From Pseudomonas tritici (GTDB taxonomy: Bacteria > Pseudomonadota > Gammaproteobacteria > Pseudomonadales > Pseudomonadaceae): a DNA stretch of 64,000 bases. A model generated the notes under the pieces. That model was not told the DNA's origin, did no database searches, and worked only from the letters and a program-made list of their open reading frames with translations. The position numbers and the translations under genes were made by a program. Positions 3,764-23,048 of this stretch are shown one piece after another (the stretch's first letter is position 1; the number at the start of each line of letters is the position of its first letter). The stretch spans positions 3,658,001-3,722,000 of the forward strand of contig NZ_CP077084.1 in the NCBI RefSeq assembly GCF_014268275.3. Direction: 5' to 3'.

Positions 3764-5470
3764 ATGCAAGTTACTGAAGTCTCCATTGCCCAATTGCGCG
3801 CGGCGCTTGAGTCCGGCCAGACCACGGCCGTTGAACTGGTCCAGGCATACCTGGCGCGAATCGATGCCTATGACGGTCCGCAGACCGCCACCGCCTTGAA
3901 CGCCGTGGTGGTGCGCAACCCCGAAGCGCTGAAAGAAGCCGAGGCGTCCGATGCACGCCGGGCCAAAGGCGAAACCTTGGGGCCCTTGGACGGCATTCCT
4001 TACACCGCCAAAGACAGCTACCTGGTCAAGGGCCTGACTGCGGCATCCGGCAGCCCGGCGTTTGCCAAGCTGGTCGCGCAACGTGATGCGTTCACCATCG
4101 AGCGTCTGCGCGCCGGCGGTGCCATCTGCCTGGGCAAGACCAATATGCCGCCGATGGCCAATGGCGGGATGCAACGTGGCGTGTATGGCCGCGCAGAAAG
4201 CCCGTATAACGCCGATTACCTGACCGCGCCGTTCGCCTCCGGCTCGTCCAACGGCGCTGGCACCGCGACGGCGGCGAGCTTTGCGGCCTTTGGCCTGGCA
4301 GAAGAAACCTGGTCGAGCGGGCGCGGCCCGGCGTCCAACAATGGCCTGTGCGCCTACACCCCGTCCCGCGGGGTGATTTCGGTGCGCGGCAACTGGCCGC
4401 TCACGCCGACCATGGACGTGGTGGTGCCCTACGCCCGCACCATGGCCGACCTGCTGGAAGTGCTCGACGTGGTGGTCGCCGAAGACCTGGACACCCGTGG
4501 CGACCTGTGGCGCCTGCAGCCGTGGGTGCCGATCCCGAGCGTCACCTCGGTACGCCCTGCTTCCTACGCTGAATTGGCGGCGCCTGCCGAATCCCTGGCG
4601 GGCAAACGCTTTGGCGTGCCGCGCATGTACATCAACGCCGACCCCGACGCCGGCACCAGCGAAAAACCCGGGATCGGTGGCCCGACCGGGCAGAAAATCA
4701 ACACCCGCGCCAGCGTGATCGACCTGTGGCAAGACGCGCGCCAGGCGCTGACAGCGGCCGGCGCGGAAGTGATTGATGTGGATTTCCCGCTCGTGTCCAA
4801 CTGCGAAGGCGACCGCCCTGGCGCACCCACCGTGTTCACCCGGGGGCTGGTGTCCAAGGAATTCCTCCACGATGAACTGTGGGAACTGTCAGCCTGGGCG
4901 TTTGACGACTTCCTGCGCGCCAACAACGACCCGGCGCTCAACCGCTTGGCGGATGTGGACGGGCCAAAGATCTTCCCCCACGACCCAGGCACCTTGCCCA
5001 ACCGTGAGGACGACTTGGCCGCCGGCATGGACGAATACGTGCGCATGGCCGAGCGCGGCATCACCCCGTGGGACCAGATTAGTACCGTCCCCGACGGCCT
5101 GCGCGGATTGGAGCAAACCCGGAGGATCGACTTGGAAGCCTGGATGGACAAGCTCGGCCTCGACGCCGTGCTGTTCCCCACCGTGGCCGACGTGGGCCCG
5201 GCGGATGCCGACGTGAACGAAGCCTCAGCCGATATCGCCTGGAGCAACGGCGTCTGGGTGGCTAACGGCAACCTCGCCATCCGCCACCTGGGCGTACCGA
5301 CCGTTACCGTGCCGATGGGCGTAATGGCGGATATTGGCATGCCGATAGGGCTGACATTCGCCGGGCGCGCCTATGATGATTCGGCGCTGCTGCGGTTTGC
5401 CTCGGCGTATGAAGCGACGGGCAGCAAGCGCCAGATTCCACCGCGCACACCGCCGTTGGCGCCGATGTAA
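3764..5470 (+). CDS. Amidase signature family hydrolase
   Basis: A 568-residue amidase expected to hydrolyse an amide or related C-N bond; the substrate is not predictable. The Ser-Ser-Lys triad can be located: Lys in GIPYTAKDS (about residue 83), cis-Ser in ASGSSNGAGT (about 160) and the nucleophile in ETWSSGRGP (about 184), where most relatives have DTGGSIR. An Ala/Gly-rich core follows. A GTG lies one codon upstream at 3761; the ATG is chosen because neither has a strong ribosome site. It is probably cotranscribed with the XRE regulator gene. Confidence 0.85.
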   Translation: MQVTEVSIAQLRAALESGQTTAVELVQAYLARIDAYDGPQTATALNAVVVRNPEALKEAEASDARRAKGETLGPLDGIPYTAKDSYLVKGLTAASGSPAFAKLVAQRDAFTIERLRAGGAICLGKTNMPPMANGGMQRGVYGRAESPYNADYLTAPFASGSSNGAGTATAASFAAFGLAEETWSSGRGPASNNGLCAYTPSRGVISVRGNWPLTPTMDVVVPYARTMADLLEVLDVVVAEDLDTRGDLWRLQPWVPIPSVTSVRPASYAELAAPAESLAGKRFGVPRMYINADPDAGTSEKPGIGGPTGQKINTRASVIDLWQDARQALTAAGAEVIDVDFPLVSNCEGDRPGAPTVFTRGLVSKEFLHDELWELSAWAFDDFLRANNDPALNRLADVDGPKIFPHDPGTLPNREDDLAAGMDEYVRMAERGITPWDQISTVPDGLRGLEQTRRIDLEAWMDKLGLDAVLFPTVADVGPADADVNEASADIAWSNGVWVANGNLAIRHLGVPTVTVPMGVMADIGMPIGLTFAGRAYDDSALLRFASAYEATGSKRQIPPRTPPLAPM

Positions 5471-5489
5471 CTGACTCAACGCAATCAAA

Positions 5490-5581
5490 ATGTGGGAGCG
5501 GGCTTGCCCGCGAATGCGGTCTTTCAGTGACAGATATGCCGACTGATCCACCGCTTTCGCAGGCAAGCCAGCTCCCACATT
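5490..5581. repeat. REPIN: two inverted REP cores
   Basis: ATGTGGGAGCGGGCTTGCC at the left end and the inverted GGCAAGCCAGCTCCCACAT at the right end enclose about 55 bp, with partly complementary inner flanks (GCGAATGCGGT / ACCGCTTTCGC). This is the common P. fluorescens-type REP doublet. It lies between the amidase stop and the decayed CPBP gene. Confidence 0.85.
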
Positions 5582-5598
5582 TTCGCCTGCATTTCACA

Positions 5599-5950
5599 TC
5601 AAGCCATCTGAGGCACGGCAACCAGCAGGATTGCCGTGCCATGGGTCAGCGTCGCCGCCAACACCCCGTAGCGCATGCGCACCAGCGCACAGGCCAACCC
5701 TTCGACCAGCGTGAACAACAACACCGGCCAGCCCAACTGGGTGACGCTCAGTGCCAGGAACGCATGGCAAGCCGCAAACGCCACTCCGCTGGCCAGTGCG
5801 GCGCGTAAGGGCGCGACATGCTGTTCCAGATAACCCTGCAAATAACCGCGAAACAACACTTCTTCCAATGCATTTGGCGCCGTAGGCCCGGCGCCAGATA
5901 CGTGCCGTAGTTAATCAGTACCGCCATTCCCTGGGTAATCATCGGTCGCT
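5599..5950 (-). pseudogene. Remnant of CPBP intramembrane metalloprotease (frameshifted, N-terminus lost)
   Basis: The lower-strand frame 5599-5868 encodes the C-terminal core of a CPBP/Abi-type protease, including the EExxxR motif (MEEVLFRGYLQGYLEQ), the second-motif region FAACHAF and a final TLTHGTA segment. Just upstream, the expected continuation (ITQGMAVLINYGTYLAPG) is in a different frame. The two join if one base is restored near 5888-5895 (LAPG then PTAPNALEE). Even then the N-terminal 100 or more residues are missing because the RidA gene ends at 5950. The gene is therefore both frameshifted and truncated. Confidence 0.75.
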
Positions 5951-6420
5951 CAACCGTGTGCCACCGCAATCATATCGACCTCCACCGCCGCCGACTTCGG
6001 CAACTGCATCACCCCCACCGACGTACGCGTGTGCGCCCCGGCGGCACCCAGAATTTCGTGCAACAAATCCGACGCGCCGTTGGCCACTTCACTCTGCTGA
6101 TCAAAATCCTCGGCACTGCGCACGTACACGGTGATGCGCGGGATCGCCCTGACCTGGTCCAGCGAACCCAACGCCTGCTTGAGCAACCCCAAGCAACGCA
6201 AGGCACTGATACCGGCGGCGATTTGCGCCTGGGCCACGGTCAGGCTTGCCCCAACCTTGCCCGGCAGCACGATCGCATCGCCGACGCGGGGGATCTGGCC
6301 ACTGATGTAGAGGTGGTTGCCGTCGCGAACCAACGGCGTGTAGTTGCCGCCGATTTTGAATTCGTCCAGCTGATAGCCAAGGCGTTGCTGGGCGGCCTGG
6401 TATTTCTCATCGGGTGTCAT
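5950..6420 (-). CDS. RidA family protein (YjgF/YER057c/UK114)
   Basis: A 156-residue member of the RidA superfamily, whose best-known activity is hydrolysis of reactive enamine/imine intermediates made by PLP enzymes. Visible features are GNHLYISGQIP near residue 40, TVAQAQIAAG, and the C-terminal stretch HTRTSVGVMQLPKSAAVEVD. The Arg of RTSVG sits where RidA enzymes bind carboxylates. The protein resembles the longer subfamily of this superfamily more than classical RidA. The ATG at 6418-6420 overlaps the stop of the upstream DUF6434 gene (ATGA), which supports this start. Confidence 0.88.
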   Translation of the reverse strand: MTPDEKYQAAQQRLGYQLDEFKIGGNYTPLVRDGNHLYISGQIPRVGDAIVLPGKVGASLTVAQAQIAAGISALRCLGLLKQALGSLDQVRAIPRITVYVRSAEDFDQQSEVANGASDLLHEILGAAGAHTRTSVGVMQLPKSAAVEVDMIAVAHG

Positions 6421-6635
6421 GGGCGTGAATCCTCGTTTCGGCGCAGCCACTCATCCACCACGTCGCCCAGGGTCTTGGGCTGGTCGTTGCGAATCCAGGC
6501 CATAAAGGGACGATCGAATTTGAACCCCGGACCGCAGTGCTCAAGCATGAAGCGGCGTACGTTTTGAGTATTTTTGTAGTGTGGGGTCACGGGGGTGCTG
6601 CGGGTGATGGAGTCGCTGTGCCAATTGAAGTCCAT
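6417..6635 (-). CDS. Small DUF6434-like protein
   Basis: A 72-residue soluble protein beginning MDFNWHSDSITRSTPVTPHY, with a basic/aromatic middle (FKFDRPFMAWIRN) and a C-terminal helix. It resembles the DUF6434 (SAP-associated) family, which has no assigned function. Its stop overlaps the RidA start by 4 bp, so the pair should be translationally coupled. A longer upstream start exists, but the extra residues are not family-like. Confidence 0.7.
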   Translation of the reverse strand: MDFNWHSDSITRSTPVTPHYKNTQNVRRFMLEHCGPGFKFDRPFMAWIRNDQPKTLGDVVDEWLRRNEDSRP

Positions 6636-6731
6636 TTGCTTGACGCTCTGATGCCTCAGGAGCCAGCAGCATAGCGCCAAATGCCACGATGAACGCCTGC
6701 CAACCGACGCCCATCGTGTTTTTTTTACACG

Positions 6732-7829
6732 TTAGCTGCCGAAGCCGGCGTCCCGCGTATTGACGAACAACGCGTAGATCGAATGGCTGCCGGCCATGAA
6801 CAGGCGGTTGCCTTCGCGACCGCCAAAACACAGGTTGGGGCAGCGCTCGGGCAACGAGATATGCCCGATGGCCTTGCCTTGTGGATTGAACACACGCACA
6901 CCATCGAGTTTTTCCAGGTCGGCCTTGGGGTCACCATTGCCGCCCCAACCGCACCACAGGTTGCCGCTCTCGTCACACTTGATGCCGTCCAGCGCTGCGT
7001 AGTCGAAACCTTCGATGTGCTTGCGACGGGCGCCGAGCGTGCCGTCGTCCTTGACATCGATGGCCCAGATCAACCGGTTGGGTTTGGCCCGACCTTCCAC
7101 TACGTACAAGACTTGTTCATCAGGTGAAAAACACAGGCCATTGGGCCCGTTGAGGTCGTCGATCACTCGCGTGACCGTGCCGCTTTCGCCATCGATGCGA
7201 TAGACGCCATGGGGTTGGGTGGGCGTGATCTTGTGCCCTTCGTAGTTGTTGCCGGTTTGGAACGGCGGGTCACTGAACCACACTGAGCCATCTCGCTTGC
7301 ACACGATATCGTTGGGCGAATTGAAAGGTTTGCCGTCAAAGCTGTCGGCCAGCACGGTGATGCTGCCGTTGTGTTCGGTGCGGGTAATTCGCCGGCCCTC
7401 GCGGGTGGTCGTCGAACCTTCGCACACCAACAAGCGGCCCTGGCGATCGCGGCACATGCCGTTGGAGAAATTAGCGTTTTCGCGGTAGACCGACAGGCTG
7501 TCGGTCACTTCGTCCCAGCGCACGATACGGTTATTGGGAATATCGCTGACCAGCAAGTAGCGGCCATCGCCGACCCACACCGGCCCCTCGGCCCAGCGCA
7601 AACCTGTCGCCAGCCGTTCGACACTGGCGTTGAACAGACGCAACTCCAGGAAACTGTCATCGAGCACTTTGATCAGTGGGTCTGGATAACGCTGGCTCAA
7701 CGGCTCGACGGCTTCTGCCAGGTGAGGCAGGTTGCCCAGCACCGCGACCGATGCGGAAACCGCCAAGGAACGCTTGAGGAAGACGCGGCGACTGTGGTCA
7801 GTCCGCGCAGGCAGAGGGGGAAGATTCAT
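6732..7829 (-). CDS. SMP-30/gluconolactonase family protein with Tat signal
   Basis: A 365-residue six-bladed beta-propeller lactonase-like enzyme, predicted to be exported folded. The N-terminus has a twin-arginine signal (SRRVFLKRSLAVSASVAVLG) ending near LAEA. Metal-site residues typical of the family are visible: Glu in RWAEGPVW, Asn in SPNDIVCK and GPNGLCFSP, and Asp in ALDGIKCDE. A sugar-lactone or similar substrate in the periplasm is likely. It is divergent from the NTF2-like gene, with matching palindromic half-sites near both starts. Confidence 0.88.
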   Translation of the reverse strand: MNLPPLPARTDHSRRVFLKRSLAVSASVAVLGNLPHLAEAVEPLSQRYPDPLIKVLDDSFLELRLFNASVERLATGLRWAEGPVWVGDGRYLLVSDIPNNRIVRWDEVTDSLSVYRENANFSNGMCRDRQGRLLVCEGSTTTREGRRITRTEHNGSITVLADSFDGKPFNSPNDIVCKRDGSVWFSDPPFQTGNNYEGHKITPTQPHGVYRIDGESGTVTRVIDDLNGPNGLCFSPDEQVLYVVEGRAKPNRLIWAIDVKDDGTLGARRKHIEGFDYAALDGIKCDESGNLWCGWGGNGDPKADLEKLDGVRVFNPQGKAIGHISLPERCPNLCFGGREGNRLFMAGSHSIYALFVNTRDAGFGS

Positions 7830-7888
7830 TGTGTGTCTCCGTTATTTTATTGTTAGACGGGACAACATTCTTAATCAGTGATGGGACA

Positions 7889-7993
7889 TCGTACAAGAAC
7901 AATGAAACCTCAAGCCCCATGCAATGCAGGAACTCTGTAAATAATCAAAAATTTAGTTTTCAAAATAAGCGTGGATAGAGCAATGTTGTACGA
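7889..7993. promoter_or_regulatory. Spaced inverted repeat TCGTACAA / TTGTACGA between divergent genes
   Basis: TCGTACAA at 7889-7896 and its exact complement TTGTACGA at 7986-7993 lie in the 218-bp gap between the SMP-30 gene (start 7829) and the NTF2-like gene (start 8048), one half near each promoter. TTGTACGA resembles GntR/FCD half-sites. The assignment to a regulator is inference; no regulator gene is adjacent. Confidence 0.4.
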
Positions 7994-8047
7994 CGACACA
8001 AACAGTAACGTGTTGTCCGCTACCCCAACAACAATAAGGAACCCCAC

Positions 8048-8479
8048 ATGCAAAAAATCAAAGTACTGATCGGTTTTCTCTGCCTGTTTACCGGCTATGT
8101 CGCCGCAGCGCCTGCCCCTGCGGAAAAGGAGGTGGCCCAAGCGGTCGACCAACTGACCCAAGCCATGCTGCACCTGGACCTCAAGCAGCTTGATGCGCTG
8201 ACGTCCGACAAACTCACCTACGGCCATTCCAGCGGCAAGGTGCAGAACAAAGCGCAATTCATCGCCGACCTGGAAACCCACACCAGCGCCTTCAAGACCC
8301 TGGAAATGCAGAACCAGACCGTCACCCTGCAAGGCGACACCGCCCTGGTGCGCAACCACTTCCACGCGCTGGCCGTGAACAGTGGCGTTGAAGTGCCCAC
8401 CGACATCGACAATTTCCAGGTTTGGCAGAAGCAGAAAGGCAAGTGGCTGCTAATCGGGCGCCAGGCTTACAAGTACTGA
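8048..8479 (+). CDS. Secreted NTF2-like (DUF4440) protein
   Basis: A 143-residue protein with a signal peptide (MQKIKVLIGFLCLFTGYVAA, cleaved near APA) followed by a SnoaL/NTF2-like cone fold: DQLTQAMLHLDLKQLDALTS, TYGHSSGKVQNKAQFI and the C-terminal WQKQKGKWLLIGRQA. Such domains act as small-molecule binders or isomerases; no specific activity can be named. RBS AAGGAACCCC precedes the ATG. It is divergent from the SMP-30 lactonase and could share its regulation. A 9-bp hairpin (8488-8512) lies just after the stop, over the end of the convergent MocR gene. Confidence 0.8.
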   Translation: MQKIKVLIGFLCLFTGYVAAAPAPAEKEVAQAVDQLTQAMLHLDLKQLDALTSDKLTYGHSSGKVQNKAQFIADLETHTSAFKTLEMQNQTVTLQGDTALVRNHFHALAVNSGVEVPTDIDNFQVWQKQKGKWLLIGRQAYKY

Positions 8480-8507
8480 TGGCCAGCGGTGAGCCGCGTG
8501 CGCCGGC

Positions 8508-9833
8508 TCACCACTCCACCACCTTGCGCACTGTCAGCAATGCCTCGCGCAGCGCCGACATGTCCACCGAACCCAGCGCCAGGCGCAGCGCGTGCGGCAC
8601 ATAAGCCGTGACGGCAAACGGCTCGGCGGTGGACACCGAGATATTCTCGCACTGCAAGGCCATGGCGATCTGGTCGGCGCGCGCGTCCTCCGGCAGGGGT
8701 AACCACAAGAAATACGATGAGGGATGGCTGGTGTAGGCCAGCCCTTTCAACACCTGCGCCGCCAGGGCTTGCCGCGCCTGGGCATCCCGGCGCTTTTGCG
8801 CTTCCAGTTGCGCCACCGTGCCATCTTCGATCCACGCCACGGCAATGGCGCTCATGACACCGGGCACGTTCCAGGTGGTGGCCATGATGGTGCGCTCAAG
8901 TGCTTTAACCCAGTCACTCGGCGCCGCGACAAACCCCACGCGCAAACCGGTCGCGACACTTTTTGAGAGCCCGCCCACATACACCGTGCGTTCCGGCGCC
9001 AGGGTCGCCACGGGTGGCGGTGCGTTTTCGACCAGGAACGCGTAGGCCGCGTCCTCAATGATCATCAGATTGTGCTGCCGGGCGATGGAGACCAACTGCT
9101 CGCGCTGGTCCCTGTCCATCACCCAGCCAAGGGGATTGTGCAGGGTCGGCATGCTGTACACGGCGCGCACCGGGCGTTTGCGACACAGGTTTTGCAAGGC
9201 GTTCAGGTCGGTGCCGGTGGGCGTAACCGGGATCGCGACAACTTCCAAGTGCAGGGTTTCGGCCAGCACCTTGAACCCGGAATAGGTCAACGCATCGACC
9301 GCGACTACATCCCCCGGCTTGAGCAACGCCATCATCGTCACCGCCAAGCCGTGCTGGGCGCCGCTGACCAGCAGCACCTGGTCGGCCTCTACGGTTAGCC
9401 CTCGGCTCAGTAAATGCCGTGCGACGGCAGCCCGCTCATGCAAACGCCCTGCGTGAGGCTGGTAACGCAACAGGGCCTCGAGGTCGCCGGACAGCGCCAA
9501 CTGGCGTAACGCCGTGCGCAACAGGTCAGCCTGGCCCGGCAATGAGGGATAGTTGAAATTGAGGTCGAGCATGCCCGCCGCAACCGTCATCTGCCCACTG
9601 CCCTGCCCTGGCGGCAGCGAGATCTCGCGCACAAAGGTGCCGCGTCCGGTTTCACCGCTGACCAGCCCCATGGCCTCCAGCTCGGTATAAACCCGGCTCG
9701 CGGTCACCAGCGCCAGGCCATGATCGGCGGCCAGTTGCCGGTGCGTCGGCAGGCGCGTACCCGGCGGCATTTTCCCCGAACGGATGCCCTCGGCAAAAGT
9801 GTCGACCAGCGACTTGTAGCGGGCGCGTGGCAT
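8508..9833 (-). CDS. MocR-type GntR/aminotransferase regulator
   Basis: A 441-residue fusion of an N-terminal GntR winged helix (about 1-75; LPTHRQLAADHGLALVTASR, ending GRGTFVRE) with a fold-type I aminotransferase domain. The PLP-binding Lys is in YVGGLSKSVATGLRVGF, and the Asp that contacts the pyridine ring is in IIEDAAYAF. MocR proteins usually act as PLP-responsive regulators. It is divergent from the EamA exporter gene with only 90 bp between starts, so that exporter is the probable target. Confidence 0.9.
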   Translation of the reverse strand: MPRARYKSLVDTFAEGIRSGKMPPGTRLPTHRQLAADHGLALVTASRVYTELEAMGLVSGETGRGTFVREISLPPGQGSGQMTVAAGMLDLNFNYPSLPGQADLLRTALRQLALSGDLEALLRYQPHAGRLHERAAVARHLLSRGLTVEADQVLLVSGAQHGLAVTMMALLKPGDVVAVDALTYSGFKVLAETLHLEVVAIPVTPTGTDLNALQNLCRKRPVRAVYSMPTLHNPLGWVMDRDQREQLVSIARQHNLMIIEDAAYAFLVENAPPPVATLAPERTVYVGGLSKSVATGLRVGFVAAPSDWVKALERTIMATTWNVPGVMSAIAVAWIEDGTVAQLEAQKRRDAQARQALAAQVLKGLAYTSHPSSYFLWLPLPEDARADQIAMALQCENISVSTAEPFAVTAYVPHALRLALGSVDMSALREALLTVRKVVEW

Positions 9834-9847
9834 AAGGATGTATCCAT

Positions 9848-9865
9848 GACAATTTTTTGATTGTC
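9848..9865. promoter_or_regulatory. Palindrome GACAAT-N6-ATTGTC between mocR-type gene and exporter
   Basis: A perfect 6+6 inverted repeat with a T-rich spacer lies 15 bp upstream of the MocR start and 59 bp upstream of the exporter start. The position suits an operator for divergent control. Binding by the adjacent MocR protein is inferred, not shown. Confidence 0.45.
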
Positions 9866-9923
9866 CTAATGCTCGCCCCTAGGATGGCTTCGATGCAACC
9901 CCTCATTCTTCGGGCGCCTCCTC

Positions 9924-10814
9924 ATGGAACGTACATCCCCCTTCAGCACCCTGGATACCCGCACCCAAGGCTGGATCAATGGCTTTATCGGCGTGGTGAT
10001 TTTCAGCGGCTCGTTGCCCGCCACGCGCCTGGCCGTGATGGAGTTCGACCCGGTGTTCCTCACCATGATCCGTGCCGCCATCGCCGCCAGCCTGGGGTTG
10101 TGCCTGCTGGGGCTGTTCAAGGAAAAACGCCCCGCGCGCGACCAATGGATGCCCCTGGCGATCGTTGCCCTTGGCGTGGTGATCGGCTTTCCCCTGCTGA
10201 CCGCACTGGCGCTGCAGTACGTGACCTCGGCCCACTCCATCGTGTTTATCGGCCTGCTCCCCCTCGCGACCGCGGTGTTTGGCGTACTGCGCGGTGGTGA
10301 GCGCCCGCGTCCAGTGTTCTGGTTGTTCTCGATCCTGGGCAGCGTATTGGTGATGGGTTATGCCGTCGCCCAGGGTTTGACCGCCGCACCCGCCGGCGAT
10401 TTGCTGATGTTGCTGGCAGTGTTGGTCTGCGGCCTGGGTTACGCCGAGGGCGCCACCTTGTCGCGCAGCCTGGGCGGCTGGCAGGTGATCTGCTGGGCGT
10501 TGGTGGTGGCGATGCCGGTGGTGCTGCCCTTGAGCCTGCTCCTGGCACCGCCAAGCTTGCGCGGCATTAGCCTGTCGGCCTGGCTGAGCCTGGGTTATGT
10601 GGCGTTGTTCAGTATGTTGATCGGCTTTGTGTTTTGGTACCGCGGCCTGGCTCAGGGGGGCATTGCCGCCGTCGGCCAGTTGCAGTTGCTGCAACCGTTT
10701 TTCGGCCTGGCATTGGCGGCGGGCTTGCTGCATGAGCAGGTCAGCCTGGGCATGGTGCTGGTGACGGTCGCGGTGATCGGCTGCGTGGCGGGCGCGAAGA
10801 AGTTCGCCCGTTAA
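9924..10814 (+). CDS. DMT/EamA family transporter
   Basis: A 296-residue inner-membrane protein with ten hydrophobic segments arranged as two EamA repeats (about residues 15-145 and 155-290). Characteristic sequence includes VTSAHSIVFIGLLPLATAVF at the end of repeat 1 and the closing QLQLLQPFFGLALAAGLLHE. Such proteins usually export metabolites or amino acids; the substrate is unknown. It is divergent from a MocR regulator that may sense the exported compound. Its stop overlaps that of the convergent YceI gene by 3-4 bp. Confidence 0.88.
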   Translation: MERTSPFSTLDTRTQGWINGFIGVVIFSGSLPATRLAVMEFDPVFLTMIRAAIAASLGLCLLGLFKEKRPARDQWMPLAIVALGVVIGFPLLTALALQYVTSAHSIVFIGLLPLATAVFGVLRGGERPRPVFWLFSILGSVLVMGYAVAQGLTAAPAGDLLMLLAVLVCGLGYAEGATLSRSLGGWQVICWALVVAMPVVLPLSLLLAPPSLRGISLSAWLSLGYVALFSMLIGFVFWYRGLAQGGIAAVGQLQLLQPFFGLALAAGLLHEQVSLGMVLVTVAVIGCVAGAKKFAR

Positions 10815-17181: not shown

Positions 17182-17746
17182 AAGTTCTCAGTGTGCGGAA
17201 GCGGATTGAAGATCGAGCATTATAGGTGGCAAGCTGGGCCGAAGAGGCCACCGAGCCTGACAGAAACCGGCTTTCACCGAAGTTTTCAGAGAAACTTCAT
17301 GTTTTTAAGAGTTTTTAACATTTCGCGTGTATTTTTTAACGCGTCAATCACCGGCCACCGTCGTCGTTTTTACGAGTGACCGTGGTTTTTTCTGACAGCC
17401 GTTGCTCACGTCTAATCAGGAAATTTCACCTCTAACATTTATCAGGCTCGCCCCCTATATTGTCACCACGCCGTGACAAAAAACCAACCGTGCTACCGTT
17501 GACAGCCTTACAACTCAAATGAAACTATCCGTGTACTTTCAGCAAGTCCTCTTCGCGAAAGTTCATGGATGACAATTAAAATAAATATCAAAGGAACTGA
17601 TATCGTGCCACTTCTCGATTTTATCTATCGCAATAACTTTGTCGACCACCCTTTATTCAACAGACCAATAATCTAGCTCAGAGATTCGCGCTAACGGCGC
17701 TGACCTTCTTTATATTATTTGTATTATTGAATGCAGGTAGCCTTTC
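17182..17746. other. Long AT-rich divergent intergenic region
   Basis: 565 bp between the two-component genes (lower strand) and the biosynthetic operon (upper strand). It is markedly richer in A/T than its neighbours, for example around 17280-17345 and 17575-17740. It must hold both promoters. Apart from the short ORF at 17605-17676 I see no gene; no known operator was recognised. Confidence 0.6.
17605..17676 (+). CDS. Possible 23-residue leader or small peptide ORF
   Basis: A GTG-initiated frame of 23 codons with an AAGGA-type ribosome site 8 bp upstream (17591-17596). The peptide is MPLLDFIYRNNFVDHPLFNRPII, given as two parts: MPLLDFIYRNNF then VDHPLFNRPII. It ends 70 bp before the AMP-ligase ATG. 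It could be a translated leader, a small product of the operon, or chance. I see no homologue or terminator that decides between these. Confidence 0.3.
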   Translation: MPLLDFIYRNNFVDHPLFNRPII

Positions 17747-19282
17747 ATGTTCTTGTATCACGACGTCATCGAGAAGATCGCGGCAAAACACCCCGAAAAG
17801 TGCGCTGTCGTTGTTGATGGAATCCGTTACACCTATGAAATGCTTCGCACACGGACGCTACAAATAGCCCATGTATTAGTCGCCAACGGCGTTCATCCGG
17901 GAGATCGCGTCGCCCTGTATTCCCCGATTTGCTTCGACCTGATCGCGGCCTATCTCGCCGTCCTGCGTACCGGTGCTATTACCGCCGCCACACACCCGAC
18001 TTACAGCCGCGAAAAACTGGTGTATCAGCTCAAGCATACTGGCGCGAAAGTTCTGATCACCCAAGGCTGCAATGCCCTGGAAACGCTGCACCTGGAAACC
18101 GATGTCGATCGCATCATTCTGATCGGCAACGATGAAACACTGCACCCGGAAATAGTCTCTCTGGACCGTGCAGTATCGACACCGGACACTCAGGCGGCCG
18201 CACTTCCCGACCTGCAGGACGATACTCGCATCACGTCGATTTTCTATACGTCCGGCTCCACCTTCAACCCGAAGGGCGTGGTGGTCAACCATCGCATCAT
18301 GGCCGCGGCGACAAGCGCCGTTACCGCTTATCTGAACAACACGCCGGACGATGTGATCCTCAGCTATTCCACATTGGCCTCTGACTACGGCGTGTACAAC
18401 ATCTTGATGCCCTTGTACTTCGGCGGCACATCGGTCATTGAGAGCTTGCCACCGACAGATGCGGACGATGTTCTTGAAGTGGTGAAACGTGAAGGCGTAA
18501 CCGGCATGCACGTCTTCCCGCCCATATTTTTCCTGCTTGCCGCGACCAAAGAGCACTGGCGACAGCAACTGCCCACGCTGCGCTATATTTCCAGCAGCGG
18601 TCAGCCGTTGTATTCCCGTCATATAGAACGTATTCGCGCTGCACTTCCCGACGTTCAAATCTTCTCCAATTATGGTCTGACTGAATGCAAACGCGTCAGT
18701 TATTTGCCACCTGAAGAAATTGATAGACGCCCTACTTCTGTTGGCAAGGCTTTGCCCGGTGTTCGCGTATTCATTGTCAATGATGACGGCGAACAAATAA
18801 CACAGCCGAACACTATCGGTGAACTTTGGGTGACCAGTGATTACTTGATGCTTGAATATTGGCAAATGCCTGAAGCCACTCACTCAGCCATAAAAACACA
18901 CGTATTCGGTGAAGCGAGACTTTATCGCACAGGCGACCTTTTCAAGAAAGACGACCGAGGCTTTCTCTATTATATAGCGCGCAAGGATGATGTATTTGCT
19001 CGCAACATATGGAATGTGAACCCACGCGAGATAGAGCAGTGCCTGGCCTCCCACCCCGCCGTCGCCCAAGTGGTTGTAATGCCGGTAGCCGACGAGTCTG
19101 CGGGTTTTTTGCCCAAGGCATTTGTAGTACTGGAACGAGACCACGATTCAACTTGCGAAGCCGCATTAAAGGAGCATTGCAAACGGCTGATGGACTGGCA
19201 CATGGTCCCGGCGCAATGGGCATTCATGGATGCGTTGCCTCAAACCGATTCCGGAAAGACCACCGGTAAAGGCTTGGCTTGA
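17747..19282 (+). CDS. AMP-forming acyl-adenylate/CoA ligase of a biosynthetic operon
   Basis: A 511-residue stand-alone adenylating enzyme that should activate a carboxylate with ATP. The phosphate-binding loop YTSGSTFNPKG (167-177), SNYGLTECKR, the RTGDLFK hinge region and the C-terminal SGK lysine are all present. No carrier-protein domain follows, and none is encoded nearby, so the acceptor could be CoA, an amine or a carrier elsewhere. The substrate cannot be predicted. It is the first gene of a five-gene run and is 17 bp from the next start. Its composition is more A/T-rich than flanking core genes, hinting at transfer. Confidence 0.85.
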   Translation: MFLYHDVIEKIAAKHPEKCAVVVDGIRYTYEMLRTRTLQIAHVLVANGVHPGDRVALYSPICFDLIAAYLAVLRTGAITAATHPTYSREKLVYQLKHTGAKVLITQGCNALETLHLETDVDRIILIGNDETLHPEIVSLDRAVSTPDTQAAALPDLQDDTRITSIFYTSGSTFNPKGVVVNHRIMAAATSAVTAYLNNTPDDVILSYSTLASDYGVYNILMPLYFGGTSVIESLPPTDADDVLEVVKREGVTGMHVFPPIFFLLAATKEHWRQQLPTLRYISSSGQPLYSRHIERIRAALPDVQIFSNYGLTECKRVSYLPPEEIDRRPTSVGKALPGVRVFIVNDDGEQITQPNTIGELWVTSDYLMLEYWQMPEATHSAIKTHVFGEARLYRTGDLFKKDDRGFLYYIARKDDVFARNIWNVNPREIEQCLASHPAVAQVVVMPVADESAGFLPKAFVVLERDHDSTCEAALKEHCKRLMDWHMVPAQWAFMDALPQTDSGKTTGKGLA

Positions 19283-19299
19283 AATCAAGGAGCGATACG

Positions 19300-20292
19300 A
19301 TGAACCCGCCGTACGACGCAGCATTAGAAAACAGTTCAATGTTCAAGTTGGCCGAGCACTTTCACAGCCTGGCCACCGGCTCGACCCAGGTTCCTTCCCA
19401 GCCACTCACCAGCCATCTTCGCGATACCATCGCGGACGTCGATGTCATTGCCTACCACGATCAATTGGTGGCTGATGCCGGCCCGTTGTTTTCGCACTTC
19501 CTGGCCAGCGTCCCGTACATTCTCGAGGAGATGGCGCGAATTGGTGTGGCGCTGACCCGACTTTCCAACGCCCGCCGCACCGGACAGGCGCAACACTTCA
19601 GTTTTTTTGAAGTCGATGCCTTCGACGGCAGCAATGGCCGCGCGCTGGCGGCCCACTCTCGCGGCTTGGTTCAGACACTGACGTGCTCGCCCAACCGCGC
19701 CAATCAGATCGCCTTTGATCGGTATGCCTCTCCTGAGCATTCACTGTTCTACCCACAATCGTTCTTCAAGGTCACCCCGTCGTTGCTCAGCTCGGCGCCT
19801 TATCAACGGTTTGCCGAGGGTTTCGACTACCTCTACGAAACCGCTGCATTCCAGTTCTACACTCAGGACCGCGACCTGCAGCTCAGTCATATCAAACCGC
19901 TGCTCAAGCCGGGCGGCCTGGCGTTCTTCTTGGAAAAACTCAATCACGCCGACCCTGAGGAATATCTGCGCCGGGAAGCGCTCAAGGATAAACGCTTCAA
20001 GACGCGCTATTTCACCGTCGAAGAAATCGAGTGGAAGCGCAGACAAATGCTCGATCAGATGGAAAACGGACAAGTCCGCAAGGAGGCTCTGGTTGCAGCC
20101 CTTCAGCGGCACTTCAAGCACGTCTTCCTGCTATGGAATAGCACCAATTTCTGCGAATTCGTCGCATCAGACGATCAGAACCACATCGAGCACTTCCTCG
20201 AACTGCTAGGCCCGGTCAATCAGCCCGGCGGCTTCTGCTTCGAAAATGCGTCCCTTGGCAAACAGCCGCAAGGGGACGCTCTCGATGCCTGA
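19300..20292 (+). CDS. Atypical SAM-dependent methyltransferase-fold enzyme
   Basis: A 330-residue protein with a helical N-terminal region of about 95 residues, then a Rossmann-like core. Motif I appears degenerate: FFEVDAFDGSNGRALA in place of the usual GxGxG. LTCSPNRANQ, FDYLYETAAFQFYT and LLKPGGLAFFLEKLN follow, consistent with strand order in class I SAM enzymes. It might methylate an intermediate, or use SAM in another way such as cyclisation; the latter is speculation. AAGGAG at 19287-19292 supports the ATG at 19300 over the upstream in-frame start at 19279. The last 8 bp overlap the next gene. Confidence 0.7.
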   Translation: MNPPYDAALENSSMFKLAEHFHSLATGSTQVPSQPLTSHLRDTIADVDVIAYHDQLVADAGPLFSHFLASVPYILEEMARIGVALTRLSNARRTGQAQHFSFFEVDAFDGSNGRALAAHSRGLVQTLTCSPNRANQIAFDRYASPEHSLFYPQSFFKVTPSLLSSAPYQRFAEGFDYLYETAAFQFYTQDRDLQLSHIKPLLKPGGLAFFLEKLNHADPEEYLRREALKDKRFKTRYFTVEEIEWKRRQMLDQMENGQVRKEALVAALQRHFKHVFLLWNSTNFCEFVASDDQNHIEHFLELLGPVNQPGGFCFENASLGKQPQGDALDA

Positions 20293-21406
20293 CGTTTATC
20301 TATCCCAGTGGCGCGAGCGGGCTGCCCTTGCGGATAAAAGCCGTAGATTGAGCGACGAAACACTGGGTGAGTTGCGCTCAAGCGGTTTGCTGAACCTGGT
20401 TTGCCCCCGCAGAGCCAAACCGCTGAAACCCGGCTGGCCAGCATTGGTTCGTTCATCAAGGATAGCGGCCAGGGCATGTGCATCGACAGGCTGGTTAATC
20501 AGCTTGGTGGGAGGACACGCCGCCATCGCAGCGCGCTTGAATCCATCGTTTGAGGCGAAACTCTACGACGGCGGCACGACACAGTTGTTTGCCTCTGCAT
20601 CGGCAGGCCCGGACAGTCGATTATCCATTGAGCCTGGGGGCATGCGTGTCAGTGGGCGCTGGCGATTCAGTTCTGGCATTGAACACGCGACGTGGTTGAT
20701 TCTGAATGCACCCTGCGCGAACCCTCCTACGGCCGACGCCAGCGAGCGCTTCCTGATTGTCGTAGCGAAGCAAGGTGTCACTGTTCTCGACTCCTGGGAC
20801 AGCATAGGCATGCGCGCCACGGGTTCGCATGATGTCGTAACACCAGAGCTGTTGGTGCCTCATCACGAAGTCTTCCCGCTTCAAGAGGTGTTCGGTGCAC
20901 GACCGGCGGGCACCGGGTCGGATTACCTTTACAGCGTGCCCATCGTGCCGTTCATCACGACCTCGATCATAGGCCCGCTATTGGGCTGCGCGGAGGGGGC
21001 GTACGACCTCCATCTCCAGGCGCTCGCGCAGCAAACTACTCCACCTTCGGCGGTGGCCCTTGAGCGGGTAGCCCACAGTGGCGCGCAGTTGACGGCGGCC
21101 AGTGCGCTGTTTGATTCACTGGTCAATCGTTTGGACGAATCAGGTCAGGCACTGCGCTCACTCAGCGAGAGCCAGTTGTCAGCCCTCAAGCGTGATCGCA
21201 GCTACCTCGCCCGCCAATGCGTTGAAGCCGTACACCGACTGGTAGAACACAGTGGCGCCTCGTTGATGACCACCGGCAATCCGTTGCATCGCCACTGGCG
21301 CGACCTGCAAACAATGGCCGCGCACCGTGACGTGCATTGGGATTCAGCCATGCTCGCCAGTGCTGCTTCAGCGCTCCACCCCCCCCTTTTAGCCTCAAAT
21401 CATTAA
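20285..21406 (+). CDS. Acyl-CoA dehydrogenase-fold flavin monooxygenase-like protein
   Basis: A 373-residue protein of the acyl-CoA dehydrogenase superfamily. It looks closest to the group D flavin hydroxylases (HsaA/HpaH/DszC type): an N-terminal helical part, a central barrel with SGRWRFSSGIEHATWLIL and DSWDSIGMRATGSHDV, and the C-terminal NPLHRHWRDLQTMAAHRDVH that lies at the flavin site in such hydroxylases. It would need a flavin reductase supplied from elsewhere. Hydroxylation or N-oxidation of an intermediate is a reasonable inference. Its ATG overlaps the preceding stop by 8 bp, so translation is coupled. Confidence 0.75.
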   Translation: MPDVYLSQWRERAALADKSRRLSDETLGELRSSGLLNLVCPRRAKPLKPGWPALVRSSRIAARACASTGWLISLVGGHAAIAARLNPSFEAKLYDGGTTQLFASASAGPDSRLSIEPGGMRVSGRWRFSSGIEHATWLILNAPCANPPTADASERFLIVVAKQGVTVLDSWDSIGMRATGSHDVVTPELLVPHHEVFPLQEVFGARPAGTGSDYLYSVPIVPFITTSIIGPLLGCAEGAYDLHLQALAQQTTPPSAVALERVAHSGAQLTAASALFDSLVNRLDESGQALRSLSESQLSALKRDRSYLARQCVEAVHRLVEHSGASLMTTGNPLHRHWRDLQTMAAHRDVHWDSAMLASAASALHPPLLASNH

Positions 21407-21418
21407 CGGGAGACGACG

Positions 21419-21805
21419 ATGTTTGTTCGCAGCAAAGCCGATATTGAAAACACCGCCCACTTTGTTGAGTGGGGTGCTGGAACCAGCCACCGCCTGCTGA
21501 CGGAAAAAGACCAGATGGGCTATACCGTCTGCCATACCGTCGTGCGCGCAGGCACCGAGTCTCTGCTGCATTACCGTAATCACTTGGAAGCCTGTTATTG
21601 CATTGCAGGTAACGGTGAGGTTGAAGATATGAACGGCAACGTCTATCAGATCCGCCCAGGGGACATGTATGTGCTGGACCAGCATGACCGCCATTACCTG
21701 CGCGGTGGTCAGGACGAGGACCTGGTACTGGTGAGTGTGTTCAACCCGCCGCTCAGGGGCGATGAGCGCCACAACCTCAGCGACACCTCTGGCTCAAGCT
21801 ATTGA
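21419..21805 (+). CDS. Ectoine synthase-like cupin (EctC-like)
   Basis: A 128-residue cupin resembling ectoine synthase along its length: [11 protein letters not shown] at the start, [20 protein letters not shown] and [19 protein letters not shown]. Residues that bind iron in characterised EctC (Tyr52, Glu57 and a His near 92-93) have counterparts at Tyr52, Glu57 and His92. No ectA, ectB or ectD is present, so ectoine itself is unlikely to be the product. A ring-closing dehydration of another diamino- or amide-bearing compound is the inferred role. GGGAG lies 8 bp before the ATG; the gap to the preceding gene is 12 bp. Confidence 0.8.
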
Positions 21806-21848
21806 TCGGCTGTCAGTTGACTCTATGATTCATTGAAACGGGAGCACC

Positions 21849-23048
21849 ATGCGCAAGGATTACCTGGCTTTTTTTATCTCACTGTTCCTGTCACGGCTGG
21901 CGGACCAGATCCTGCTGTTTATCGTGCCGCTGATTGTGTTCCAGACCACCAACAGCGTCGCGTGGGCCGGGTTGGCGTTTTTCGTCGAATCGCTGCCGCG
22001 CTACCTGGCCTTTCCCGTCTGTGGAGCGTTGTGCGATAAATTCTCGCCGGTGCGCATCCTGCATATCAGCCAGGTTTACCGCGCACTGGCGTGCGTGGTG
22101 GCCGTAGCGCTTTACGGGGTGTTTGACGGTATCTATTGGCTGGTGGCCCTGTCTGCGCTGTGCGGCGTACTGACGACGCAAGGCATCATGGCTCGCGAAG
22201 TCGTGATGCCACACATCTTCAAGCATTACACCTACGCCAAGACCTTGTCCTACTCACAAATAGCCGACCAGAGCGGCCTGGTGCTGGGGCCGCTGGTAGC
22301 GGCGTTGATGTTGGAGGTGTGGGCCTGGCATTGGGTAGTGCTGGGGGTTGCCGGGTTGTTTGTGCTGGCAGATCTGGCGATGCGGGCCTGGCAGCGCAAC
22401 ACCACGGTGAATCTTGAGAGTTTTGAACAGCATCAGGACATCTGGCTGCAACCGCTGCGCATCGCATTCGGGCATATCCGCAACCTGCCAGAGCTGAAGC
22501 GCATCATTGCCCTCGCGGTCGGCGTGAACCTGATCATCGGCGTGACGCTGGCCACGTCGGCGGCGATGGTCACGGGTCAATTCGCCGCCGGCAAGGATGC
22601 CTATGCGTTGCTACAGGCGGCCGGCGCAGTGGTCACCATCGCTATCCTGTTTTACCTGGCGCGCGCCACGCTGTCGTTGAAAGTGCTGGGCGGGCTGTCG
22701 TATTCAATGATCGGGGCCGGGGCCCTGGTCATGGCGGTCAGCCCCACGCTTTGGGCTTACACCGTGGGATTCCTGCTGGTCACCGGTTTCGACAAAATGT
22801 TCAACGTGTATATGCGCAGCACACGTCAACGGGTCATTCCGGTGCAAGACTTCGGTAAAACGGTGGGCGTGATCACGTTGCTCAACAACCTGGCACAGCC
22901 ATTGGCCGGTCTTGCGATTGCCGTACTCGCCGCGCCCTTGAGTACCCAGACGGTGATCCTGCTGCTGACCGGGATCACCGCGCTGATCGGCGTGGCCGTC
23001 GCGTCAGGCTGGCACGCCACTGTGAAAGCGGAATTCGATGTCGGGTGA
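21849..23048 (+). CDS. MFS transporter, probable exporter of the operon product
   Basis: A 399-residue inner-membrane protein with about twelve hydrophobic helices. The loop between helices 2 and 3 has GALCDKFSPVRIL, the major facilitator signature. It resembles the drug/siderophore-exporter branch of the family (EntS-like). As the last gene of the operon, 43 bp after the cupin and with a GGGAG ribosome site, it probably exports the product or gives self-protection. Its last 45 bp overlap the 3' end of the convergent miaE gene. Confidence 0.85.
   Translation: MRKDYLAFFISLFLSRLADQILLFIVPLIVFQTTNSVAWAGLAFFVESLPRYLAFPVCGALCDKFSPVRILHISQVYRALACVVAVALYGVFDGIYWLVALSALCGVLTTQGIMAREVVMPHIFKHYTYAKTLSYSQIADQSGLVLGPLVAALMLEVWAWHWVVLGVAGLFVLADLAMRAWQRNTTVNLESFEQHQDIWLQPLRIAFGHIRNLPELKRIIALAVGVNLIIGVTLATSAAMVTGQFAAGKDAYALLQAAGAVVTIAILFYLARATLSLKVLGGLSYSMIGAGALVMAVSPTLWAYTVGFLLVTGFDKMFNVYMRSTRQRVIPVQDFGKTVGVITLLNNLAQPLAGLAIAVLAAPLSTQTVILLLTGITALIGVAVASGWHATVKAEFDVG

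Follow-up and report, generated by a model that had tools for sequence, protein, structure and literature searches.

A recurring five-gene cassette built around an EctC-like cupin in Pseudomonas tritici may make and export a small amino-acid derivative

The 2018 and 2019 papers that treat orphan EctC proteins as solitary count 145 of them among the 582 EctC-type proteins of their set and describe their role as unresolved (PMC5924519, PMC6344544). In EctC, Trp21 contacts the substrate and Asn38 provides a carboxylate contact (PMC6344544); orphan members are reported there to carry a shifted Trp and often Ser104. An ectoine synthase gene has also been catalogued among other partners: the antiSMASH cluster 'Ectoine-like 1' of Pseudomonas Ps663, published in 2021, comprises an AMP-dependent ligase, a hypothetical protein, a dehydrogenase, an ectoine synthase and a transporter of the major facilitator superfamily (MFS), with no function given in its entry (PMC8719888). 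Judged by the text description of that cluster, the same five products occur in the same order in a 64,000-nucleotide stretch of Pseudomonas tritici DNA (the window; contig NZ_CP077084.1, positions 3,658,001 to 3,722,000). The published entry lists the cluster without function, spread, subfamily or pattern of loss. A sequence-only reading of the window had not recognised the gene set from a described pathway; PMC8719888 lists it as 'Ectoine-like 1', so that the set has been catalogued but, as far as the literature search shows, not described as a pathway. That search, in which most of the listed papers were judged from the listing alone, did not turn up the five-gene set beyond that entry. The cassette is real, widely conserved and uncharacterised, and is best filed among small adenylation-based metabolite operons.

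The operon consists of five plus-strand genes at 17747–23048 (Table 1), with gaps of 17, −8, 12 and 43 bp in the gene calls, exactly the figures of the sequence-only reading. They encode an AMP-forming ligase (LIG), an enzyme dependent on S-adenosylmethionine (SAM; the SAM enzyme), a flavin monooxygenase-like protein (FMO), an EctC-like cupin (CUP) and an MFS transporter (MFS), product types that had been named at the outset and that are borne out by domain searches and by a structural model of the SAM enzyme. Domain assignments are based on Pfam and NCBIfam profile searches with curated cut-offs.

A scan with the SAM protein alone, one genome per species, found relatives at 42 loci, and LIG, SAM, FMO and CUP all gave tblastn matches at 31 of these (L003–L031, L037 and L041), a count of matches rather than of proven intact genes (LIG in L010 and FMO in L028 each span one stop), from a scan that reaches only loci matching two peptide patterns. 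The 31 loci belong to Pseudomonas, a gammaproteobacterium, Burkholderia, Variovorax, Bradyrhizobium, Agrobacterium, Epibacterium, Streptomyces, Saccharothrix, Actinorugispora and Nocardiopsis, which we take to represent alpha-, beta- and gammaproteobacteria and actinobacteria. Co-occurrence of the five genes had been proposed as a check; the four enzymes do occur together in several classes, more than by chance, and their strong co-conservation supports a dedicated small-molecule operon with an exporter. Nine of the other 11 loci carry the SAM gene alone (eight cyanobacterial, one Streptomyces), and two (L042, L044) have apparently decayed. On a tree built from the window, database relatives and 14 of the 31 cassette loci, the cassette SAM proteins form one supported clade of 47 rows, to which neither the cyanobacterial nor the plasmid homologues belong. 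Gene order varies between cassettes, CUP may be divergent, and LIG and SAM form a single open reading frame (ORF) in L021 and L027. The transporter is, on gene content, the most replaceable part: an MFS orthologue was matched by tblastn in 19 of the 31 loci, and the transporters of the other 12 include six checked by Pfam (five MFS, one EamA) and six called MFS by eye. RidA-family genes lie next to the cassette in L020 (by eye), L041 and an Agrobacterium vitis plasmid, which may point to imine by-products. Neighbouring genes were called with a simple script, and their names were given by eye unless a Pfam search backs them. The loci from the contig scan and the genome search overlap (L003 and L072, for example, have contigs of equal length) and are not independent. 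In Streptomyces sp. UNOC14_S4, a SAM-enzyme homologue was seen by eye between a methyltransferase gene and nadC-/nadA-like genes (L032, 3027–6749).

LIG matches AMP-binding and AMP-binding_C (Pfam, 1.3e-76). Asp213 (at the adenylation-domain Asp235 position), Arg316 and the A10 Lys are kept in all 33 aligned ligases (including L002, a cut-out of G019), and the Asp aligns with both adenylation domains of LgrA. We take the corresponding adenylation-domain residue numbers to be 235, 330 and 517. From these amino-acid-type residues, LIG is predicted to adenylate an alpha-amino acid. It shares the Asp235-type and A10 Lys residues with the adenylation domains of nonribosomal peptide synthetases (NRPSs) such as LgrA, but differs from them in being stand-alone, in an operon without a carrier, and sometimes fused to the SAM enzyme. 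Pfam found no carrier protein among the five operon genes; the rest of the genome was not searched for carriers.

The SAM enzyme has no Pfam or NCBIfam match, yet its predicted structure (mean predicted local distance difference test score, 92.5) confidently shows a class I SAM-enzyme fold nearest CmoA, and the earlier label of an atypical SAM enzyme fits on both counts. It is longer than CmoA and the CmoA homologues TglE/MccS (PMC10491745), with 16–17% identity in structural alignments and a weak profile match; CysG and BelI are also among the nearest folds. An azetidine synthase (AzeJ) was rejected as a candidate, each of the motifs PFNxxGN and RxxYYxxC given for it (PMC11794875) being found in 0 of 48 SAM-family members; its absence from the 50 structural matches shown carries no weight. 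One sequence, P0119, was omitted from the invariant-column count of the SAM-family alignment. FMO matches Acyl-CoA_dh_2 (Pfam, 4e-15; 56.7 bits against a cut-off of 22.7), the fold family of group D flavin monooxygenases, with HsaA as its best NCBIfam model (175.5 bits, under the cut-off of 450), 2rfq (3-HSA hydroxylase) as its nearest PDB entry and a weak kinship to nitrososynthases (3mxl, 7.8e-6). Such a protein would need a separate flavin reductase; the genome holds seven Flavin_Reduct matches over the cut-off, none of them in the operon. MFS matches MFS_1 (Pfam, 1.7e-22).

CUP passes the Pfam and NCBIfam ectoine synthase models (Ectoine_synth, 2.7e-39, over the cut-off), and the iron ligands Glu57, Tyr84 and His92 (numbering of PMC6344544) are kept in all 57 EctC-type rows including that of the window. 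In 53 of these, the window again included, Trp lies at 18 instead of 21 and is accompanied by Cys38 and Ser106. Of the 53, 32 come from cassettes, two from remnants (L069, L073), 13 from databases and six from plasmids, where they have other neighbours; L001 and L002, cut out of the window and of G019, were dropped from the EctC table and the trees. The remaining four rows (L064–L067; L064 has an ectABCD-ask layout, read by eye) have Trp21, His38 and Cys106. Position 38 is thus variable beyond the subfamily as well. No EctA or EctB scored over the curated cut-off in the bacterium's own genome (completeness 100; TIGR02407 at best 359.1 of 552.2 bits, TIGR02406 27.9 of 120.6), and an ectoine osmolyte operon was rejected on that ground. 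Given the shifted Trp, Ser at the Cys104 position and the lack of ectAB over the cut-off, CUP is placed by its residues in the orphan EctC subfamily, with an altered substrate site. It thus shares the cupin type and the three iron ligands with ectABC(D) ectoine biosynthesis but differs in its residues at the three other positions, in having no ectA or ectB over the cut-off and in its partner enzymes; it resembles the orphan proteins of PMC5924519 and PMC6344544 in all the features that define its placement but, whereas those are treated as solitary and of unknown role, sits in a recurring enzyme set.

Orphan-subfamily EctC genes elsewhere keep other company. They lie beside NRPS genes in Rhizobium and Paraburkholderia (L206 and L207, each 5001–10384), adjoin genes for an AMP ligase, a carrier protein and an acyl-CoA dehydrogenase on a Burkholderia stagnalis plasmid (L208, 3215–10375), and in one case each neighbour a saccharopine dehydrogenase-like gene, an aminotransferase gene or mobile elements. 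The earlier statement that no carrier protein or NRPS is present holds for the operon itself. In another Pseudomonas (L066, 6081–13272), a distant EctC lies beside EctB-like aminotransferase, formyltransferase-like, Rieske oxygenase and phosphoenolpyruvate-mutase-like genes (by eye), possibly a phosphonate cluster using an EctC.

On balance, and by a narrow margin, it is probable that the cassette makes and exports a small, ring-closed, oxygenated amino-acid derivative by a carrier-free route. LIG would adenylate an alpha-amino acid, whose acyl group would go directly to an amine with no carrier protein in between. A SAM-derived group would be attached by the SAM enzyme, a fusion partner of LIG in some loci, and hydroxylation at nitrogen or carbon would fall to FMO, supplied with reduced flavin by a reductase of the host. 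CUP would form the ring by eliminating water between amide and amine, in the manner of EctC, and MFS would carry the product out of the cell and give the cell protection. Every reaction, the order of steps and the direction of transport are inferred from the observed gene set, its conservation, its residue patterns and the predicted fold, with cyclisation by CUP and hydroxylation by FMO drawn from protein family. Several points weigh against this scheme. The group transferred by the SAM enzyme cannot be read from its modelled fold; FMO falls under every NCBIfam cut-off; and, with Asn38 replaced by Cys and the Trp displaced, CUP may catalyse a reaction other than ring closure.

Further points on the same side come from the history of the transporter in Pseudomonas, and most of these also favour the strongest alternative, in which MFS is a general Pseudomonas efflux pump that gained the cassette as a neighbour on more than one occasion and has no special tie to its product. 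The transporter is far commoner than the cassette: an MFS orthologue (E 1e-130 or better) is present in 124 of 398 Pseudomonas genomes and the cassette in 14; EctC was found in 26, which include all 14 with SAM. No cassette remains were found upstream of MFS in 103 of 112 cassette-less copies (among the 112 is L178, the additional copy of a genome that also has the cassette). The rows with a cassette are dispersed over the MFS tree (13 rows, at least 12 changes; 47 of 127 inner branches open; L083 and L084 are absent, having no MFS orthologue), with cassette loci nested among MFS-only ones amid many weak forks. In the seven MFS-only loci of the window's clade that were compared, MFS is preceded by one common, clean region of 154–157 bp, to which the first ~160 bp of the operon's upstream region are in part similar; given this common region and the nesting, the cassette may have been gained next to an MFS already in place, or alleles may have been exchanged, in that clade. 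Cassette-less MFS genes are under purifying selection, with a ratio of nonsynonymous to synonymous substitution rates of 0.18 at the median and 0.36 at most (6206 usable pairs), and the ratio for cassette-bearing MFS is slightly lower (0.14, 70 pairs).

A general pump is nevertheless judged unlikely. MFS orthologues (52–53% identity) occur in cassettes of Burkholderia, Bradyrhizobium, Agrobacterium and Variovorax, and in 19 Pseudomonas cassettes MFS distances track those of LIG, SAM, FMO and CUP (Spearman 0.84, 0.79, 0.78 and 0.87, reached in none of 2000 permutations). Cassette genes or pieces lie upstream of nine of the 112 cassette-less copies, a count in which L089 is weak (E 5e-3) and from which a weak LIG-like match upstream of MFS in L171 (42%, E 3e-7) was left out. 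The 25 EctC loci outside the window include 13 with all four enzymes, four with a distant EctC (39–43% identity to CUP) and eight remnants, seven of which keep MFS and two of which (L069, L073) keep CUP and MFS at the window's own site. All 125 MFS copies, and five outgroup rows with them, are open frames of 391–427 aa. We read the pattern as one of enzymes lost and the transporter retained, most simply as immunity, with gain or allele exchange possible within the window's clade. Since many strains keep the transporter without the enzymes, a protective role is suggested besides export; the original designation of an exporter is probably right as far as it goes, and protection is added to it.

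Two alternative chemistries, set beside the scheme by analogy, are both considered quite improbable. In the first, LIG would activate an amino acid, FMO would N-hydroxylate a partner amine and CUP would rearrange the resulting O-acyl hydroxylamine to a hydrazine or other N–N product, in the manner of hydrazine synthetases made up of a methionyl-tRNA synthetase (MetRS)-like domain and a cupin. The same trio of functions (ATP-dependent amino-acid activation, N-hydroxylase and cupin) makes hydrazines, and an acyl-CoA-dehydrogenase-type N-hydroxylase has been hypothesised for alanosine (PMC11705231); the adenylation-domain residues of LIG and the weak nitrososynthase kinship of FMO are in keeping with this. 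The likeness is one of function, however: the ligase is of the adenylation-domain type, no MetRS-like domain was found (at E 0.001, LIG matches only AMP-binding Pfam families and SAM none), FMO is nearer to aromatic hydroxylases (HsaA), and CUP is EctC-type with Glu/Tyr/His iron ligands, whereas the hydrazine synthetases are called zinc-dependent (PMC11705231). In the second, the SAM enzyme would methylate one carboxylate and LIG would activate the other to give a lactone or lactam, as CysG and the AMP-forming CysF do in sequence for cystargolide (PMC11427300, PMC11408123), with CUP acting later. The structural proximity of CysG and BelI to the SAM enzyme, the AMP-forming partner and the LIG–SAM fusions all speak for this reading on the cystargolide/belactosin model; against it, the operon has no esterase among its five genes and an EctC-like cupin and FMO instead, LIG resembles amino-acid adenylation domains, and the His-His-Asp metal motif of CysG was not placed on the SAM model, an HH pair occurring somewhere in only 10 of 48 family sequences. 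Very improbable is the view that CUP is an ordinary ectoine synthase scavenging N-gamma-ADABA made by a host, with the other genes as unrelated neighbours. In its favour, CUP passes the ectoine synthase models, and a scavenging role has been put forward for P. syringae B728a, whose lone EctC brought back ectoine production in an H. elongata strain mutated in ectC (PMC5924519). Against it, CUP is found with the three other enzymes at 31 of 42 loci, the subfamily is changed at the Trp21, Asn38 and Cys104 positions and the genome has no EctA or EctB over the cut-off.

A bolder version of the scheme of ring closure and export draws on distant SAM homologues, a relative of the SAM enzyme being present in 198 plasmid records. 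In all four cases read (two in E. coli, one each in Klebsiella and Streptococcus), a LysE-family exporter gene, confirmed by Pfam for Klebsiella, lies directly 3′ of the SAM relative. The two-gene unit of E. coli, whose SAM homologue is 32% identical to that of the window over 299 columns, matches 29 of 5426 complete E. coli genomes, always on plasmids and in 19 cases along 80% or more of its length. One enzyme paired with an amino-acid-type exporter suggests that the family can make a small exported amino acid from SAM, and the unit is a candidate minimal amino-acid antimetabolite system; that the E. coli product is like microcin 15m, called a methionine derivative (PMC6795089), is a guess. 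An MccD-type enzyme was rejected for the E. coli gene, the two E. coli plasmids listing no mcc gene, only the adjoining LysE translocator, in gene tables that are incomplete. On rhizobial plasmids, the SAM relative lies near quorum-sensing, transfer or regulator genes; in L195 (4069–8960), L196 (7956–10436) and L203 (3800–6275), from rhizobial and Agrobacterium plasmids, it is near a 445–468 aa protein without a Pfam family, with LuxR/TraI or AraC and MFS genes.

The pairing with an amino-acid-type exporter is the basis for the speculation, rated as very doubtful, that the window's SAM enzyme hands over the 3-amino-3-carboxypropyl group of SAM, instead of methyl, to the nitrogen of an amide or amine to give an N-substituted 2,4-diaminobutyrate skeleton of the kind that EctC closes, the products being exported oxygenated amino-acid antimetabolites, MFS an immunity kept by non-producers, and the plasmid SAM–LysE units a minimal form of the system. 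Aminocarboxypropyl transfer by methyltransferase-fold SAM enzymes, also to amino groups, has precedent (PMC10491745). If this were true, ectoine-type rings would be made without aspartate semialdehyde, EctB or EctA, and in the plasmid units of E. coli, Klebsiella and Streptococcus one enzyme would turn SAM into an exported toxic amino acid.

The DNA upstream of the operon is AT-rich, as first described, with a G+C fraction of 0.435 at 17182–17746 against 0.607 across the window. The sequence-only reading began the operon at 17605, which is the GTG of a separate 23-codon ORF; the first large gene begins at 17747. A short ORF of 23–25 codons preceded by a Shine-Dalgarno (SD) sequence, with the SD at −141/−142, occurs in three of 20 loci checked (the window, L003 and L070), and the peptide sequence varies; a conserved leader peptide at 17605 was therefore rejected. 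The flanking genes, named by eye, are a response regulator and histidine kinase pair upstream and a MiaE-like gene downstream, all on the opposite strand.

Table 1. Features of the operon region, in window positions, and SAM-homologue plasmid units, in positions of the named loci.
Feature	Position	Strand	Description
AT-rich upstream region	17182–17746	+	Likely operon promoter; low G+C
Short ORF	17605–17676	+	23 codons, GTG start, SD-like AAGGAACTGATATC, 5′ of LIG; possible leader peptide (weak)
LIG	17747–19282	+	Stand-alone, adenylation-domain-like AMP-forming ligase; predicted to adenylate an alpha-amino acid
SAM	19300–20292	+	Class I SAM-dependent enzyme, CmoA-like fold, without Pfam family
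FMO	20285–21406	+	Acyl-CoA-dehydrogenase-fold flavin monooxygenase-like protein, nearest HsaA
CUP	21419–21805	+	EctC-like iron cupin, orphan-EctC subfamily
MFS	21849–23048	+	Transporter; predicted export and self-protection
SAM-homologue + LysE units	L199 443–1393 and 1–436; L200 3217–4746; L194 7986–9575; L201 4953–6567		Plasmids of E. coli, K. oxytoca and Streptococcus

For part of the orphan EctC group, the operon supplies recurring partner enzymes, and the role of these proteins thereby becomes testable. Where an EctC match serves to mark ectoine clusters, as it does in one genome survey (PMC8776678), the pathway it leads to can be a different one. The cassette also brings out a family of SAM enzymes with a CmoA-like fold and no Pfam model, found both in small metabolite operons and in two-gene plasmid units with an exporter. 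That many strains lacking the enzymes still keep the transporter hints at a role of the product between bacteria living side by side.

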